Below, in pieces: positions 3,257 through 25,844 of a stretch of 37,393 bases of DNA (position 1 is its first letter; every line of letters starts with the position of its first letter). The DNA lies in NCBI GenBank assembly GCA_017448455.1, contig JAFSLL010000273.1:1-37393 (forward strand). The letters run 5' to 3'. The notes under the pieces are model-generated. The model saw nothing but the letters and a program-made list of their open reading frames with translations, was not told where the DNA came from and searched no databases. Origin of the DNA: Oscillospiraceae bacterium (GTDB lineage Bacteria > Bacillota > Clostridia > Oscillospirales > Oscillospiraceae). Both the position numbers and the translations under genes were made by a program.

Positions 3257-4387
3257 TTATGATCCGGACTTCCTTGCATAGTCCAGAACCGCATCCACAA
3301 TTCTGTCCAGGGAATCCTCCACGGTAAGGGTTTTCATGGCTCCCGCCATTTCATTCAGTTTCGCAGGGTCCTGCAGCAGGGAGTGAATTTCACTCAGGAA
3401 ATCCGCCTCATTGAACTCCCCTTCCAACAGCACACGAGCACCGCCTGCATGTTCAACGAGCCGCGCGTTTTTTTCCTGATGGTGATTGGTAACATTGGGA
3501 GACGGAACAATCAGCGCCGGTTTGCCAATGCTGCTGAGTTCGGAGAGTGTGGATGCTCCGGCCCTGCATAGCACCAGATCCGCGGCACACAGAACCCGTT
3601 CCGCGTCAAAAATGTATTCGCGGATTTCCGCATTGCAGTCCTGCGGCTTCACGCCTGCCGCTTCAAGGCTTTCCATCACCTTCCGATAGTAATAGTGCCC
3701 TGTCGCGTGAATCATGGCAAATTCATGCTGGCCCTTCATCTGCGGCAGCATGCGTGTTACGATTTCATTCATATGTCCTGAGCCAAGAGAACCCCACATT
3801 GAGACTACAAGCGGCAGGTCAGGATCGATCCCGAGTTCCTCTCTGGCAGTCTCCCGGGTATAGCGACAGAATTTACCTCGAACCGGTGTGCCCGTAACGC
3901 GCAGATCTTTCGCGTTGGGATAGTATACACTGCTCTCCTCATAGCCGAGCAAAACACAGCTCACATGTCCGGTGAGCATTTTCGTCGTCAACCCGGGAAC
4001 CGCGTTGCTCTCGTGAATCAAAGTTGGAATCCCAAGCTTTGCCGCTTCATGGAGCACCGGATAACAGACATAACCGCCTGTCCCCAGAACCGCGTCCGGC
4101 CGATACTCTTTCAGGATTCGCCGTGCCTCATGGCCGGAATCAATCACGTTCTTCAGAGAATCCAGGTTATGTCGAAGATCACTCATTCGATGACCACGGC
4201 TGATATTGGTCACCCGAAGAGGACGGATCTCAAACCCGTCTCTGGGAACGAGTTCCATCTCCATTTTTCCCTCTGCGCCGATAAACAGAATCTCGCAGTC
4301 GTCAAGAAGTTCCCGCAGTCGCTGAGCCACAGCGATTGCGGGATTGATATGTCCTGCGGTTCCGCCGCAGGTCAGAACAAATTTCAT
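3257..4387 (-). CDS. murG: UDP-GlcNAc:lipid I N-acetylglucosaminyltransferase
   Basis: MurG transfers GlcNAc from UDP-GlcNAc to lipid I to form lipid II on the inner membrane face. The 376-residue protein has the acceptor-side glycine loop GGTAGHINPA near residues 8-17, the second loop region around SMWGSLGSGHMNE, and the UDP-GlcNAc site RAGASTLSELSSIGKPALIVPSP in the C-terminal half. Length is normal for this GT28 family. The ATG at 4387 follows the mraY stop by 21 bp and has GAGG upstream. It is the last gene of the mraZ-rsmH-murE-mraY-murG run, followed by an intrinsic terminator. The usual neighbours ftsW, murD and murC are missing. Confidence 0.97.
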   Translation of the reverse strand: MKFVLTCGGTAGHINPAIAVAQRLRELLDDCEILFIGAEGKMEMELVPRDGFEIRPLRVTNISRGHRMSDLRHNLDSLKNVIDSGHEARRILKEYRPDAVLGTGGYVCYPVLHEAAKLGIPTLIHESNAVPGLTTKMLTGHVSCVLLGYEESSVYYPNAKDLRVTGTPVRGKFCRYTRETAREELGIDPDLPLVVSMWGSLGSGHMNEIVTRMLPQMKGQHEFAMIHATGHYYYRKVMESLEAAGVKPQDCNAEIREYIFDAERVLCAADLVLCRAGASTLSELSSIGKPALIVPSPNVTNHHQEKNARLVEHAGGARVLLEGEFNEADFLSEIHSLLQDPAKLNEMAGAMKTLTVEDSLDRIVDAVLDYARKSGS

Positions 4388-4408
4388 TTTCGTTCCTCGT
4401 AAAGCCTG

Positions 4409-5416
4409 TCAGAATCTGTCATAAACCGTCAGGAAAGAAAGCACCATGCAAATCAAAGACACGCAGGTATAGAGAACAAAGAGCTCCTTTTCCTTCCATT
4501 TCCTTCCGGTCCATCCGCCCAGCTCAAGGTGGTGATGGAACGGAGCCATGCGGAACACCCGCTTCCCGTGAGAAAGTTTAAAATAGCCAACCTGAATGAT
4601 ATCCGAGAGCGTTTCAATGATAAACATCACACACAGAGGGATCAAAATCAGCGGCATGTCATAGGCAAACGCCAGCGCTGCTATTGCTCCGCCGATAAAA
4701 AGGCTCCCGGTATCGCCCATAAACACGCGGGCGGGGTTGTAATTATACATCAGAAAGCCCATCAGTCCGCCGACCATCGCCGAAGCAAAAATGCCCAACT
4801 GAAGATATTCCTGTCCCCAGGCGAATGTGATCAGGACAAAGAACAGGAATACAGGAATTGAGGTGCCTGTCGCCAGTCCGTCAATACCGTCCGTAATATT
4901 TACCGCATTGACGGTACCGACTATTACGAAAACAGCAAACACATAATAAAGCCACTGCGGCATATTGACGACTCTTCCGGAAACAGGGAGATACAAAACC
5001 GTATGCAGAAACCCGAGTTTTTTCATCAGAAAGAGGAATATCAGCGCCGCGACAACCTGAAGAAGAAATTTTGCCCTGGCAGACAATCCCAGGTTCTGCT
5101 TTTTCCGGATCTTCTGCCAATCATCCAGCAAACCGATTGCTCCGAATACCATCGCAAAGAGAAGGACAAAAATGTGTTCAAAATGCCCCTGAAGCATCCC
5201 GGGGAACCCAAGTGTCAGGCAAACAAGGGTCGCTGCGAGGATGAACATCACGCCTCCCATTGTCGGAGTGCCCTTCTTCGGTTCATGCCAACCCGGCCCA
5301 TCTTTCTTAATCTGCTGTCCCGCCTTCTCTTTTACCAGCCAGGGAATATATTCTTTTCCGAACGCGGTGGCAAACAGGAACGCGATTGCAAACGCGCAGA
5401 GCATCTTCAGTGTCAT
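4409..5416 (-). CDS. mraY: Phospho-N-acetylmuramoyl-pentapeptide transferase
   Basis: MraY attaches phospho-MurNAc-pentapeptide to undecaprenyl phosphate to make lipid I. The 335-residue polytopic protein shows the conserved KKGTPTMGGVMF near residues 47-58, the catalytic Asp region GLLDDWQK, the NAVNITDGIDGLATG motif, and the HHHLE histidine motif near residue 290. About ten hydrophobic segments are visible. The ATG at 5416 overlaps the murE stop as ATGA, indicating translational coupling. In many Clostridia murF lies between murE and mraY; here it does not. Confidence 0.97.
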   Translation of the reverse strand: MTLKMLCAFAIAFLFATAFGKEYIPWLVKEKAGQQIKKDGPGWHEPKKGTPTMGGVMFILAATLVCLTLGFPGMLQGHFEHIFVLLFAMVFGAIGLLDDWQKIRKKQNLGLSARAKFLLQVVAALIFLFLMKKLGFLHTVLYLPVSGRVVNMPQWLYYVFAVFVIVGTVNAVNITDGIDGLATGTSIPVFLFFVLITFAWGQEYLQLGIFASAMVGGLMGFLMYNYNPARVFMGDTGSLFIGGAIAALAFAYDMPLILIPLCVMFIIETLSDIIQVGYFKLSHGKRVFRMAPFHHHLELGGWTGRKWKEKELFVLYTCVSLICMVLSFLTVYDRF

Positions 5417-6873
5417 CGGCTCTCCACTGCCTTTCCTTTACTCAGGTATTGCGCAACGATTTCTCGTTCATCCATGTGTCTTTTCTCATGCCCGACAATC
5501 TGGTAATCCTCGTGGCCCTTTCCGGCAAGAAGGATAACATCCCCCTTCTGTGCCAGATCAATTGCCCGATGAATCGCTTCTGTCCGATCGCAGATCCGCT
5601 CATACGGGGTTTCCATTCCGACAAGTCCTTTTTCTATCTCGTCAAGAATCGCCTCCGGATCTTCCGTGCGCGGATTATCACTGGTGATAATAACCAGATC
5701 CGCAAGGCTTCCCGCAATATGCCCCATGATCGGACGCTTGACCCGGTCGCGGTCACCGCCGCAGCCGAAGAGGCAGATCAGACGTCCTTTCGCTGCCGGT
5801 CGAAGGCTCTTCAGTACTTTTTCCAAAGCATCCGGTTTGTGGGAATAATCAATCAGGATACTGTAGTCTCCATCCGTCGGGACAGTCTCCAGGCGGCCGG
5901 CAACACCCTTTGCCGCAGCGAGGATTTCAGCGCAGCGTGCAGGAGCAATGCCTTCCAGACAAGCAGACGCCATCACTGCCAGCGCATTATAAACAGAAAA
6001 GCTGCCAGGAATCCCCAGCTCTGTCGGTACGCGGTTGTTTTCAAACACAGCATCGAAGTATACTCGATCAGACATGAGCACCTGATTCTCTGCACGAAGC
6101 CAGGCTTCTTCATTCGTACCAAAACGCAGCACAGGACACTCCGCCCTGCTAACCATATAGTCTGCCCAATCATCATCCGAGTTTATACAGGCCCAGTCAC
6201 ACTGCGCAAACAAGCGCTGCTTCGCGGCAGCGTAATGCTCCATATCTCCGTGAAAATCCAGATGATCCTGTGAGAGATTGGTATAAACTGCCGTATGAAA
6301 CCGAACACCTGCAACCCGATCCAGTTCCAGCGCATGTGACGATACTTCCATCACCACATGCGTACATCCTTCATCCGCCATACGGCGGAACAGTTTCTGC
6401 AGTTCATAGCTTTCCGGTGTCGTGTGGTCTGCCGGCAGAACGGTATCTCCGATACAGATACCGTTTGTACCGATCAGTCCAACCTTAGCGGACAGTCCCT
6501 GTTCCAGAACCTGTCTCAGCAGAATGCTGACACTGGTTTTACCGCTTGTTCCCGTAATGCCGATCATCCGCATAGATGAAGCGGGATTTCCGTAAAAGGC
6601 GCAGCTGCTCAAGGAAAGGCCGAGTCGTGAGTCCTTCACCCGCACATAAGGGATGTCTTCCATCGGCACTGTTTCACACAGAACAGCAGCTGCATGCTTC
6701 TCATGCGCATACGGAATAAAGCGATGACCATCGGTTTCAAAGCCGCGTATCGCGACGAATAAATCTCCCGCTTCCGTCTTCCGGGAGTCATAACTGATTC
6801 CGGATATTTCCAGGTCAGGATCTGCGGTCATCTCCAGAATCTCGAGATCCCCGATCAGTTCTTTCAGTTTCAT
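5413..6873 (-). CDS. murE: UDP-MurNAc-tripeptide synthetase, probably meso-DAP-adding
   Basis: MurE adds the third residue to UDP-MurNAc-L-Ala-D-Glu in the cytoplasm. The ATG at 6873 gives a 486-residue protein beginning MKLKELIGDLEI, the usual MurE start; the frame stays open further upstream, but only inside rsmH. The ATP loop GITGTSGKTS, the HTTPES region and the C-terminal SDNPRTEDP are present. DNPR is the accepted marker for meso-diaminopimelate rather than lysine as substrate, so the wall is probably DAP-type. The start lies two bases after the rsmH stop and the end overlaps mraY. ftsL and a division PBP, usual between rsmH and murE, are absent. Confidence 0.96.
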   Translation of the reverse strand: MKLKELIGDLEILEMTADPDLEISGISYDSRKTEAGDLFVAIRGFETDGHRFIPYAHEKHAAAVLCETVPMEDIPYVRVKDSRLGLSLSSCAFYGNPASSMRMIGITGTSGKTSVSILLRQVLEQGLSAKVGLIGTNGICIGDTVLPADHTTPESYELQKLFRRMADEGCTHVVMEVSSHALELDRVAGVRFHTAVYTNLSQDHLDFHGDMEHYAAAKQRLFAQCDWACINSDDDWADYMVSRAECPVLRFGTNEEAWLRAENQVLMSDRVYFDAVFENNRVPTELGIPGSFSVYNALAVMASACLEGIAPARCAEILAAAKGVAGRLETVPTDGDYSILIDYSHKPDALEKVLKSLRPAAKGRLICLFGCGGDRDRVKRPIMGHIAGSLADLVIITSDNPRTEDPEAILDEIEKGLVGMETPYERICDRTEAIHRAIDLAQKGDVILLAGKGHEDYQIVGHEKRHMDEREIVAQYLSKGKAVESR

Positions 6874-22909: not shown

Positions 22910-23527
22910 CTACTTCACGGAAACGGGCACACCCGCTTCATTCAGCTTATAACGCATTTCCAACGCGTCGCCATGGAAGACAGCTCCCGGCATCCCGACG
23001 TAGAATGCACCTTCTATATTATTCGTAGCGTCATCGATAAAGAAGCATTCTTCCGCCTTCAGTCCATAGGTCCTGAAAAACAAATGATAGATTTCCGGCT
23101 GGGGTTTGACCAGCTTCACATCTGCCGAAATCAAGGTTCCGTCAAAGAAACGACTTACCGGGACACGCGGCCAATACTCATGCTGGCGGTAACTTGCGTT
23201 GGAAAGAAGGAAGAGCCCATATCCCATCGATTTGAGTTCCTCAACGAGCTCATACATACCGGGGATCTCGATGATCGGCCGGTCCCAATGCGCCACCAGC
23301 AAATCCGCCGTTTCATGCAGGCGTTGAGGCAGTCGTCTGCACATCAGTTTTGTCGCTTCTTCATCCGTCAGCGAGCCGCGGTCCATTCGCGCCCATTCCA
23401 ACGATTGATAGATCTCACGCTTGAGCAATGCCCTGTCCTCTCCGCTGACGCCAACTCTGTCCAGAAACAGGTCGGTATCAAAGCGCAGCAGAACATTTCC
23501 CATATCGAAAACAATATTTTTGATCAT
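22910..23527 (-). CDS. HAD superfamily hydrolase (subfamily IA)
   Basis: A 205-residue haloacid-dehalogenase-type phosphatase. Motif I is FDMGNVLLRFD (near 6-16), the thiol/Ser motif region is LFLLSNAS, the conserved lysine lies in DVKLVKPQPEIY, and the acidic motif IV is FFIDDATNNI. The protein resembles YihX-like sugar phosphatases. The ATG at 23527 is chosen because it places motif I at the expected position; its ribosome site is weak. The gene is monocistronic, with a very good promoter and a terminator, and is divergent from the plus-strand island. The substrate is unknown. Confidence 0.88.
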   Translation of the reverse strand: MIKNIVFDMGNVLLRFDTDLFLDRVGVSGEDRALLKREIYQSLEWARMDRGSLTDEEATKLMCRRLPQRLHETADLLVAHWDRPIIEIPGMYELVEELKSMGYGLFLLSNASYRQHEYWPRVPVSRFFDGTLISADVKLVKPQPEIYHLFFRTYGLKAEECFFIDDATNNIEGAFYVGMPGAVFHGDALEMRYKLNEAGVPVSVK

Positions 23528-23585
23528 GCTGCTATACCCGAATTTTTCCCAAGTAGTAATCCTCACGACCTATTAAAGCCCAATG

Positions 23586-23778: not shown

Positions 23779-23850
23779 ATGAATGTGAGTGAACGTATGA
23801 TACCCCCGCAGTACAGCTTCTTTCCCGTCCTTTCTGGAACTCTGTTATGA
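23779..23850 (+). CDS. Possible 23-codon leader ORF
   Basis: ATG at 23779 has GGAG seven bases upstream, a better ribosome site than the long gene that follows has. It encodes about 23 residues (begins MNVSERMIPPQYSFF, ends GTLL) and stops with TGA at 23848-23850, overlapping the start of the next gene as ATGATG. This arrangement would couple translation of the long gene to the leader. Alternatively the downstream protein once began here and a frameshift separates them; the short ORF could also be chance. Confidence 0.4.
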   Translation: MNVSERMIPPQYSFFPVLSGTLL

Positions 23851-24965
23851 TGATTCGCCCGTATTCTCCAAAGCGCGCGAGGCAGCTGATCGCGGCTTTT
23901 GACGAGACCATACTGGAAACGGAGGAACACTTCCGCGTTCCCGCGGACTGGCTTCGTGCCATTCTCTTCTGTGAAATGACACAGATCGATCTGCTGGATT
24001 ATGTCGCGGATTTTGCCGTCTACCTCTATTCTCTTCACAGACTGCTTCACCGTTTCCTGTTCCGGAAGGAACCTCCCCCTGCCGAATCGCGTTTATGGAG
24101 CAAGAAGGACAGCTCAACCGGCTGGACTCAGATATTCTCCTACGTTGCCATCAACGCCGTAAATTTCGCGCTGGATCACGGCATTGCGGATTATCCTTCT
24201 CTCGGCATGTCGCCTGAACACCTGCTGGATCCCCGGAATCCGGACGACCTCTGGATGGTCTGGCGGCAACTGAACCGTAATCGACGCTTCAACCTGGAAG
24301 CGGCTGCCCTGAATCTGCTCTCTGCCGCTGAAGAAATGAACGGAACTCTGAACTGCGCCGGCTTCTCAGAACAGGAAATCAAGCGGGTTTTCAGCCGGTA
24401 TAACGCGAACACACGGGAAATCACCCCTTACGGAGAACGTGCCTATTCGGTTTATCTGGGATATCGGGTCTCCGGCGGCTTTACAGAGGACGGGTATATC
24501 CGCGACCAGGACTTTTTCTCCTCCGTACGGTACCGCGGCATGCGAGCAGACATCAACGGCTGCGGATGGATTGCGGCGTACAACCTTCGGCACTTTCTCA
24601 GCCATCAGGCAGGCTGGGAAGAGGTTTTGGAGGAAATGGACCGGATGCACACGCTGCGGGTACCCGGCCCCACGCTGATGCGTATAATGCGCGAATACCT
24701 GCGGGAGCACGTGCCGGAGGCAGCAGAGGTCGGAGGCCGGATAGAGGCCGTCAGGGCGGCGGAGAACAGTCGGGCCGGCATCTTCCGCTATCAGGAAGGG
24801 CAGGAACCGCACTTCATCATGTTTTATCGCAGTGGGCCGAATCGCTTCCGCTTTTTTAATGTAGCAGACAGTCTGGAAGATTATGAGACGGACATGGAAC
24901 AGTTTGCCGCAGAGCACTTCCGCCACGGCAATGTGATTGCCTTTACGATTGGAGGAAATGAATGA
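23847..24965 (+). CDS. Hypothetical protein: lysozyme/SLT-like domain plus C39/papain-like domain
   Basis: I do not know a named family for this 372-residue protein. The N-terminal half carries the three signatures of a lytic-transglycosylase/lysozyme fold: a possible catalytic Glu43 in VPADWLRAILFCEM, SSTGWTQIF (89-97) matching the S-x-G-x-x-Q-I motif, and YNAN (185-188) followed by YGER. The C-terminal part has INGCGWIAAYN (Cys239), HFIMFY (His312) and FRFFNVAD (Asn328/Asp331), as expected of a C39 or papain-like cysteine peptidase. No signal peptide or membrane anchor is visible, odd for a wall hydrolase. The start is ATG 23847 or 23850 with a weak ribosome site; the end overlaps the next gene as ATGA. 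Domain calls are inference from motifs. Confidence 0.7.
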   Translation: MMIRPYSPKRARQLIAAFDETILETEEHFRVPADWLRAILFCEMTQIDLLDYVADFAVYLYSLHRLLHRFLFRKEPPPAESRLWSKKDSSTGWTQIFSYVAINAVNFALDHGIADYPSLGMSPEHLLDPRNPDDLWMVWRQLNRNRRFNLEAAALNLLSAAEEMNGTLNCAGFSEQEIKRVFSRYNANTREITPYGERAYSVYLGYRVSGGFTEDGYIRDQDFFSSVRYRGMRADINGCGWIAAYNLRHFLSHQAGWEEVLEEMDRMHTLRVPGPTLMRIMREYLREHVPEAAEVGGRIEAVRAAENSRAGIFRYQEGQEPHFIMFYRSGPNRFRFFNVADSLEDYETDMEQFAAEHFRHGNVIAFTIGGNE

Positions 24966-25546
24966 AAAATGTAGTGACAGTAAGCCGCGAGTACGGCAGC
25001 GGCGGATATGAGATCGGCAGGAGAGTTGCCGAAGAGATGGGCTTTCAGTTCTATGACAAGGAGATCATCGCCCAGCTTGCCGGGGAGATTCTGGTGTCGG
25101 AATCCTTCATTCAGGCAGCGGAGGACAAGCCGCTGCGGCGGAATATTTTCCACGAAGTGTTCCCTGTATTTGTGGGAGGCGTCAACGATGACGCGGACTA
25201 CGTATTCCGGGAACAGGGAAAGTTCATCGTACGTCTGGCGGAGGCAGGCAACTGCGTAATCGCCGGGCGGCGTGCGGATTACTACCTGCGGGACAATCCT
25301 AACGCGCTTCATCTGTTCTTCTACGCAGACAGGGACTACAAAATCGCACGGATCTGTGAGACCGACGGCTGCACGCCGGATGAAGCCGCCGCGCGGATCG
25401 CGGACATGGATAAGCGCCGCAAGACCAGCTACGAGTATGTGACCGGTCGAAAATGGGGAGACCGGCATAATTATGACAGAATGATCTGCACCTCAAGTCT
25501 TGGTGCGGACAAGTGCGTGGAGGAGATTGTGAATCTGCTTAAATAA
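24962..25546 (+). CDS. Cytidylate kinase-like family protein
   Basis: The 194-residue protein matches the cytidylate-kinase-like group common in Clostridia: N-terminal VTVSREYGSGGYEIGRRVAE with a glycine-rich nucleotide loop, FYDKEII near residues 30-36, GRRADYYLRD, and a late DKRRKTSYEYVTGRKWGD segment resembling the lid and substrate region. The genuine cytidylate kinase Cmk has a different loop, so the substrate is not certain. The ATG at 24962 overlaps the upstream stop and GGAGG sits seven bases before it, so it is co-translated with the lysozyme/C39-like protein. A strong terminator follows. Confidence 0.85.
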   Translation: MKNVVTVSREYGSGGYEIGRRVAEEMGFQFYDKEIIAQLAGEILVSESFIQAAEDKPLRRNIFHEVFPVFVGGVNDDADYVFREQGKFIVRLAEAGNCVIAGRRADYYLRDNPNALHLFFYADRDYKIARICETDGCTPDEAAARIADMDKRRKTSYEYVTGRKWGDRHNYDRMICTSSLGADKCVEEIVNLLK

Positions 25547-25560
25547 AGCAAAGGAAGAGA

Positions 25561-25604
25561 ATGAGGCCTGCGGCACAAAGTGCCGCAGGCCTCATTGATT
25601 TTTA
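25561..25604 (+). terminator. Strong terminator between convergent operons
   Basis: A perfect 15-bp stem (25561-25575 with 25581-25595; left arm ATGAGGCCTGCGGCA) and a 5-nt loop are followed on the plus strand by TGATTTTTA. It ends the plus-strand operon. On the minus strand the following sequence is pyrimidine-rich, so it may also stop the hydrogenase transcript after the tandem repeats. Confidence 0.88.
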
Positions 25605-25630
25605 GCGCAGTCTTTTTTGCCTCGGGGCGG

Positions 25631-25844
25631 AATCACATGATGATTGCGTCCTTCCACCTGAAAGTGCTAGGCACTACGGGTTGCGCTTCGCGCTGATTAT
25701 GCCGTCGGGGCTGCCCTCAGGGCGCAATCACATGATGATTGCGTCCTTCCACCTGAAGGTGCTAGGCACTACGGGTTGCGCTTCGCGCTGATTGTGCCGT
25801 CGGGGCTGCCCTCAGGGCGCAATCACATGATGATTGCGTCCTTC
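25631..25844. repeat. 95-bp tandem repeat overlapping the 3' end of mbhN
   Basis: Two full units (25631-25725 and 25726-25820) differ at only two positions (25663/25758 and 25699/25794), and a third partial copy of 24 bp (25821-25844) is the end of mbhN itself, including its stop. Each unit is packed with small inverted repeats: AATCA/TGATT, CACCT/AGGTG, AGTGC/GCACT, GCGC/GCGC and GCCCT/AGGGC. The array lies between the mbhN stop and the terminator, so it should be transcribed as part of the hydrogenase mRNA 3' end. There are no spacers, so it is not a CRISPR array. Confidence 0.9.

Follow-up and report, generated by a model that had tools for sequence, protein, structure and literature searches.

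The gene for a 372-residue protein in the window is an in-frame fusion of two accessory genes, here called A and B. The window is the whole stretch of DNA that was analysed, i.e. 37,393 nucleotides of contig JAFSLL010000273.1 from an Oscillospiraceae bacterium (GenBank assembly GCA_017448455.1). The fusion looks real and is a single example in one genome. Within one clade, the two genes occur in separate, coupled and fused states. This Rosetta-stone situation is good evidence for joint action of the halves. The interpretation preferred here, with a probability of roughly 45%, is a leaderless two-domain cell-wall hydrolase, whose activity, target and delivery we infer. The analysis also brings out two conserved enzyme-like families for which Pfam has no matching model.

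Gene structure of the window

The features that bear on the fusion are:

23847-24965, + strand: fusion reading frame of 372 amino acids with an ATG start, read from the sequence
23847-24470, + strand: domain A, residues 1-208, of a lysozyme/SLT-like family; encoded separately in 18 of the other genus genomes (102 in total)
23973-23975, + strand: codon of Glu43, the proposed acid of domain A; present in 23 of 23 sequences, ends the sole SLT-matching block
24108-24137, + strand: motif II of domain A, D88-S-S-T-G-W-T-Q-I-F97; D88, S90, T91, G92, Q95 and I96 invariant (23/23)
24396-24404, + strand: motif III of domain A, R184-Y185-N186; R184 and Y185 invariant (23/23), N186 in 19 of 19 genus sequences
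24471-24962, + strand: domain B, residues 209-372, of a C39-like cysteine peptidase family; its own gene elsewhere; hhalign E-value of 4e-5 with PF13529
24561-24563, + strand: codon of Cys239, the proposed nucleophile of domain B; invariant (69/69)
24810-24812, + strand: codon of His322, the proposed general base of domain B; invariant (69/69)
24858-24869, + strand: codons of Asn338 to Asp341, candidate third triad member; Asn338 in 69 of 69, Asp341 in at least 90% and aligned with the Asp of C39-like proteins
24951-24965, + strand: GGAGG and ATGA overlap, the likely ribosome-binding site and kinase start within the 3' end of the fusion gene, by direct reading
24962-25546, + strand: cytidylate-kinase-like gene, 194 amino acids; PF13189 at 162.1 bits; no conserved partner of A or B
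25560-25596, no strand assigned: perfect 17-bp hairpin, terminator-like, 3' of the kinase gene
22910-23566, - strand: HAD-family hydrolase gene, divergent in the window; its relatives are found upstream of B, or of the A-B pair, in six related genomes, with one intervening gene in one of them (L042)

Both long reading frames that an earlier note on this DNA had described, together with the ATGA at 24962-24965 that ends the fusion frame and starts the kinase frame, were read in the sequence. Glu43, S89-S-T-G-W-T-Q-I-F97, Y185-N-A-N and Cys239 had been numbered correctly. In the proposed Cys-His-Asn set, Cys239 stands, but the other positions were 10 too low: the histidine is His322 instead of His312, and the Asn and Asp are Asn338 and Asp341 instead of 328 and 331. 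The kinase start is preceded by GGAGG at six bases. Since a terminator-like hairpin follows the kinase gene, the fusion gene and the kinase can be transcribed as a single unit. A promoter scan gave no same-strand site upstream of the fusion gene or the kinase, and no RNA family matched. Between the hairpin and the next gene, which encodes a ferredoxin, a 95-nt unit occurs in about 2.4 head-to-tail copies (25620-25844), and its two full copies are 96% identical.

The fusion protein has no family match in Pfam, NCBIfam or PADLOC. PADLOC and PHROGs yielded nothing convincing; two B members match a phage replication initiation family (best E-value 0.0028). The sequence search of solved structures gave nothing useful (best E-value 0.039). 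Among the literature search results, no title or abstract concerned an A-B fusion. The absence of a signal peptide claimed earlier is supported, as no hydrophobic leader was seen in 19 A and 69 B proteins. The most hydrophobic 15-residue stretch within the first 45 residues averaged at most 1.39 (Kyte-Doolittle) in the A proteins and at most 1.17 in the B proteins, in a scan without positive control that counted from the domain start or the chosen start codon and excluded the longer upstream starts of a few relatives.

Separate, adjacent and fused states of A and B

Searching with the whole protein returned relatives that match one half or the other, and the halves were aligned separately. With half-specific profiles, A was detected in 19 of 102 genomes of the genus, B in 51 and both in 15, with the window included. 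Among these 15, A and B share one frame in the window only; they are adjacent in two genomes (G109 and G131), 42 kb apart in one (G056) and on different contigs in 11. The two-part make-up suggested by the earlier note is supported. In G109 and G131, A precedes B and its stop overlaps the B start by the four bases ATGA.

The gene order in G109 and G131 is HAD, A, B and a glyoxalase-type gene, and that in G110 and G116 is HAD, B and a glyoxalase-type gene, while B of G015 overlaps the same glyoxalase-type gene. In these five relatives the gene overlapping the end of B is of the glyoxalase type, and in the window it is the kinase; the G110 copy is 83-90% identical to those of the other four. Across 131 loci fetched around A or B (1.62 Mb, many being the same place fetched twice), with 20 frames for A and 115 for B, no frame combines the two domains. 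The B profile retrieved 116 relatives from a contig collection, 80 of which were kept; a single-sequence scan of the same collection gave no match. A is present as a separate frame in two of the 80 kept loci, which are the G109 and G131 places. Many loci of the collection are contigs of the genus genomes, and therefore the two sets are not independent. The B relatives in this collection carry labels such as Oscillospiraceae or Ruminococcaceae bacterium, and many come from ruminant gut samples.

Met232, which lies inside B, is the sole in-frame start codon in the stretch from 45 residues before the A/B boundary to 24 residues after it, so that B is not started alone at its usual place. The co-occurrence of A and B (15 genomes with both, 4 with A only, 36 with B only and 47 with neither; Fisher 0.0097) is not separated from clade membership by the FtsZ tree. 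The link between A and B rests on adjacency and fusion.

Domain A

Nineteen residues are invariant in the 19 genus sequences of domain A, and 13 residues (E43, D51, D55, D88, S90, T91, G92, Q95, I96, W139, L142, R184 and Y185) remain invariant across all 23 sequences once four actinobacterial sequences are included. Glu43, Asp88 and Gln95 are the proposed catalytic residues among them. The A profile had no match outside the genus in 290 further genomes sampled from the class. A tblastn search of a plasmid collection gave five actinobacterial records, of which four were used, with two Paenarthrobacter plasmids of one isolate counted once. These four relatives were confirmed by profile, with E-values between 5e-17 and 3e-24 within a small frame set. 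In three of them, A forms the C-terminal part of proteins of 740-752 residues with PG_binding_1 and Rv2525c glycoside-hydrolase-like domains and, by eye, no evident leader; the fourth is annotated as a 228-residue protein. The long proteins, e.g. WP_156250914.1, carry the same A domain by profile (E-value 5e-24, small set) but differ from the window protein in their length of about 750 residues, in having wall-binding domains with A at the end, and in the lack of B.

What follows the actinobacterial A-bearing genes was noted at 3400-5537 (L369), 3547-3927 (L370), 4146-4619 (L371) and 4074-4799 (L372) of the respective loci. By eye, small proteins with membrane-like stretches follow the A gene in three loci, and related proteins (44%) with a Tat-like start follow it in two. 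The downstream proteins that were scanned had no Pfam match. In three genomes (loci L031, L032 and L124), the A gene is preceded by one and the same gene pair, which a clustering placed in fam28 and fam29; by eye, they encode an acyltransferase-like protein and a membrane protein.

The proposal of an SLT/lysozyme fold with three motifs is weakly supported, by the profile match that ends at the first of them. Against SLT profiles, domain A aligned over 27 columns ending at Glu43 with an hhalign E-value of 1.8e-4 and a score of 33.0, which none of 100 shuffles equalled (best 22.3). The rest of A, with the other two motifs, scored 13.7, a value reached by 17 of 60 shuffles, and its best pairing places G-W-T-Q-I on G-L-M-Q-L. 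Adding the actinobacterial rows did not extend the match beyond 28 columns. The comparison used 18 of 19 A rows and, as SLT control set, 8 of 9 matches, the ninth being below the cut-off and containing stops. In Pfam, the A half of the window matched only DUF3939 below the cut-off (E-value 0.25), and SLT_2 matched 3 of 12 A members, also below the cut-off (best 0.024); in one member with known coordinates, this match covers the stretch leading to the Glu.

The SLT match suggests that a helix of domain A ends at Glu43, and a lysozyme-type fold is likely, if weakly supported. As in SLT/GH23 enzymes, a Glu at a putative helix end is followed by G-x-x-Q-I and YN motifs in the same order. Domain A differs from them by the 44 residues between Glu43 and Asp88, by having no Pfam SLT match above the cut-off, and by a similarity that exceeds shuffles over the Glu helix only. 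SLT itself (PF01464) had no match in 25 genus genomes, the window genome included, and matched in 9 of the 15 genomes taken from other parts of the order, in 8 of them above the cut-off.

Domain B

The B alignment comprises the window and 68 of the 80 loci, as two incomplete sequences and 10 near-duplicates were left out. Cys239, His322 and Asn338 are invariant in all 69 sequences, and Asp341 is conserved in at least 90%. Together with the invariance of Glu43, D88, S90, T91, G92, Q95, I96, R184 and Y185 in the 23 A sequences, this shows that the motifs go beyond chance. Compared by hhalign with PF13529 members from relatives, B reached an E-value of 4.1e-5 in an alignment of 113 columns that brings the N-G-C, His and Asn/Asp blocks into register. 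The score of 35.9 was not matched by any of 100 column shuffles (best 18.6), which are a mild control. The C39 control set used 12 of 12 matches, two of them below the cut-off. With three remote B-like proteins, the E-value improved to 2e-6, compared to 0.04 for the SLT control.

No C39 family was among the Pfam matches of 26 B members, and the remote member in L137 had a Pfam C39 match below the cut-off (0.068). The earlier assignment of the second half as C39-like is thus supported at the profile level, with the putative triad in order. The aligned N-G-C, His and Asn/Asp blocks resemble those of Peptidase C39-like (PF13529) and Tox-PLC39 proteins. In contrast to these, the 26 B members lack a Pfam C39 match, and no transporter, delivery domain or immunity gene was seen with B in the window.

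The neighbouring kinase gene

The earlier note had coupled the fusion protein to the kinase in function, which the distribution of the kinase does not support. Its product belongs to the Pfam family Cytidylate_kin2 (PF13189; 162.1 bits, cut-off 28), of which the window genome has five matches, the kinase included. A further 12 genomes of the genus have close orthologues (68-74% identity); where A or B is also present, it lies on a different contig from the orthologue. Up to 1.5 kb on either side, these 12 loci contain no A or B and, by eye, no common neighbour. In G109, G131 and G015, more distant paralogues (33-37%) are located at least 44 kb from A or B on the same contig, and the 131 A or B loci contain a kinase relative once, 5.5 kb from B (L215). 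On this evidence, the kinase is a neighbour of the fusion gene that is co-transcribed at most, and the coupling is local to the window.

Co-occurrence of the kinase with A (10 genomes with both, 9 with A only, 3 with the kinase only and 80 with neither; Fisher 9e-7) was considered as a sign of coupling and rejected. The FtsZ tree leaves too few independent pairs, of which about one agrees, to separate it from clade membership.

Proposed function and alternative explanations

As a cell-wall hydrolase, the fusion protein would cut the glycan strand by domain A with Glu43 and the peptide by domain B with Cys239, His322 and Asn338 or Asp341. Both would act jointly on wall material, in the manner of CwlT or of a two-domain endolysin, though the domains belong to different families. 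Without a leader, the protein would act on release by lysis or by another route. The link to the wall comes from the actinobacterial domain partners of A and the C39-like nature of B. Peptidase_C39-like (PF13529) and DUF1906 (PF08924) both appear on a published list of lysin-associated domains (PMC10541714). Catalytic activity of both domains is likely, given their invariant residues and a window sequence that departs from conserved columns no more than the median sequence does. Counting against a wall hydrolase, the SLT resemblance is one helix long, and B has metabolic neighbours in the clade (HAD, glyoxalase-type, solute ABC transporter), a context that would also suit a cytosolic role.

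The domain order of the window protein, a muramidase-type domain and then a cysteine peptidase domain, is that of CwlT-type hydrolases (PMC12542765, PMC10653849). However, the CwlT of C. difficile has a signal peptide, PF13702 and NlpC/P60, whereas the window protein matches neither family and has no visible leader; PF13702 had no match in the window genome. If A and B cut peptidoglycan, the fusion would be a leaderless CwlT counterpart built from different domains, which raises the question of how a leaderless wall hydrolase reaches its substrate. For the CwlT-type proteins of C. difficile, only the isolated peptidase domains are described as lytic (PMC12542765), and therefore full activity of both window halves is not assured. 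A phage endolysin would be expected to have phage homologues, and neither A nor B gave a confirmed match in viral contigs or phage records. Nor was any holin, phage or export gene noticed as a repeated neighbour of A or B.

The gene context in the window clade favours a cytosolic enzyme, in which A and B would act inside the cell on imported or recycled muropeptides or on other small substrates. YkfC-type enzymes, too, are thought to act inside the cell. In six loci of the clade (L042, L048, L115, L116, L126 and L127), the recurring genes are a solute-binding protein (not seen whole in L126), an ABC ATPase, a permease, a HAD hydrolase, in some cases A, and B, which a glyoxalase-type gene overlaps in five of the six. 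This tightly packed run from HAD to the glyoxalase-type gene near a solute-binding ABC transporter, and the missing leader in the A and B proteins examined, give the cytosolic enzyme some weight. In other clades, however, A and B have different neighbours, as judged by eye, and the peptidoglycan-binding domains on three actinobacterial relatives of A suit a polymer and not fragments, so that this explanation is rather unlikely.

The remote relatives of B, all four of which keep Cys, His and Asn by eye, favour an interbacterial effector module instead. A and B would then be toxin-type domains that became loose from delivered proteins or that are delivered by an unrecognised route. In L135, a DUF4280 (PAAR-like) protein encoded near a Phage_GPD gene has the B-like domain as its C-terminal part. 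Others occur in L136 and in L137, a locus that also holds a ToxN-family gene (PF13958, 139.4 bits). The fourth is the C-terminal part of a Subdoligranulum plasmid protein in L373, linked through L137 only and not reached by the B profile. Downstream of the B-like proteins of L137 and L373 are mutually related proteins (24.6 bits) that are lipoproteins by eye, noted at 969-1412 in L137 and, three in tandem, at 4105-5504 in L373; this has the look of an effector-immunity arrangement. Tox-PLC39 is moreover described as a polymorphic-toxin domain of Firmicutes (PMC3482391). On the other hand, Pfam revealed no delivery domain in the fusion protein, and among the 80 B loci, 35 have a same-strand gene starting less than 400 bases after B, none of which has a lipobox-like start. 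Together with the lack of confirmed matches in viral contigs and phage records, this makes an effector module improbable.

A and B could also be unnamed leaderless wall-attacking modules, present as single genes at many loci and rarely joined as a two-blade lysin that stays in the cytoplasm for programmed lysis of its own cell or for release onto neighbours. This wider scenario is speculative and has a small probability.

A retention of the two folds for binding or regulation and not for catalysis is very doubtful. The lysozyme-like domain of C. difficile CwlT-type proteins is described as having no lytic activity on its own and may restrain the peptidase (PMC12542765), which speaks for such a role. 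However, Glu43 is kept in 23 of 23 sequences and Cys239 and His322 in 69 of 69, and the reading of the earlier note as two inactive folds is likewise made unlikely by the invariant residues.

Authenticity and phylogeny of the locus

The site of the fusion is the one where relatives carry B, between a murA-like gene and the ferredoxin gene of a hydrogenase-type cluster. To the left of the HAD gene lies a gene that matches PF00275 (363 bits) and is read here as murA-like; L043 (G028) and L048 (G041) have genes with 87-88% identity to it, next to B or in its vicinity. To the right of the kinase, the ferredoxin gene (4Fe-4S families) has a counterpart beyond B in L048, 73% identical over 71 residues, and further counterparts in the B regions of L115, L116 and L127. 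The A/B junction is in frame and lies between the two conserved cores. The shared flanks and this junction argue against a chimeric contig. An assembly or sequencing artefact, for which the occurrence in one metagenome-type genome (3.5 Mb in 308 contigs, estimated at 91.85% complete with 7.29% contamination) could speak, is highly improbable given the in-frame junction between conserved cores, the same A-B gene order in two relatives and the match of both flanks to B loci of relatives.

In the FtsZ tree, which covers 97 of the 102 genomes, the window falls into a supported clade of ten (100/99) with G109, G131, G110, G116, G015, G041, G028, G053 and G010. The A and B trees show no supported grouping of the window halves with G109 and G131, and descent of the fusion from that very A-B pair is therefore not established. 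The end branches of the window halves are long, at 0.72 for A (median 0.3) and 0.93 for B (median 0.22). Nevertheless, of the highly conserved columns, the window departs at only one of 36 in B and one of 38 in A, like the median sequence, which indicates that the protein changed fast where change was tolerated.
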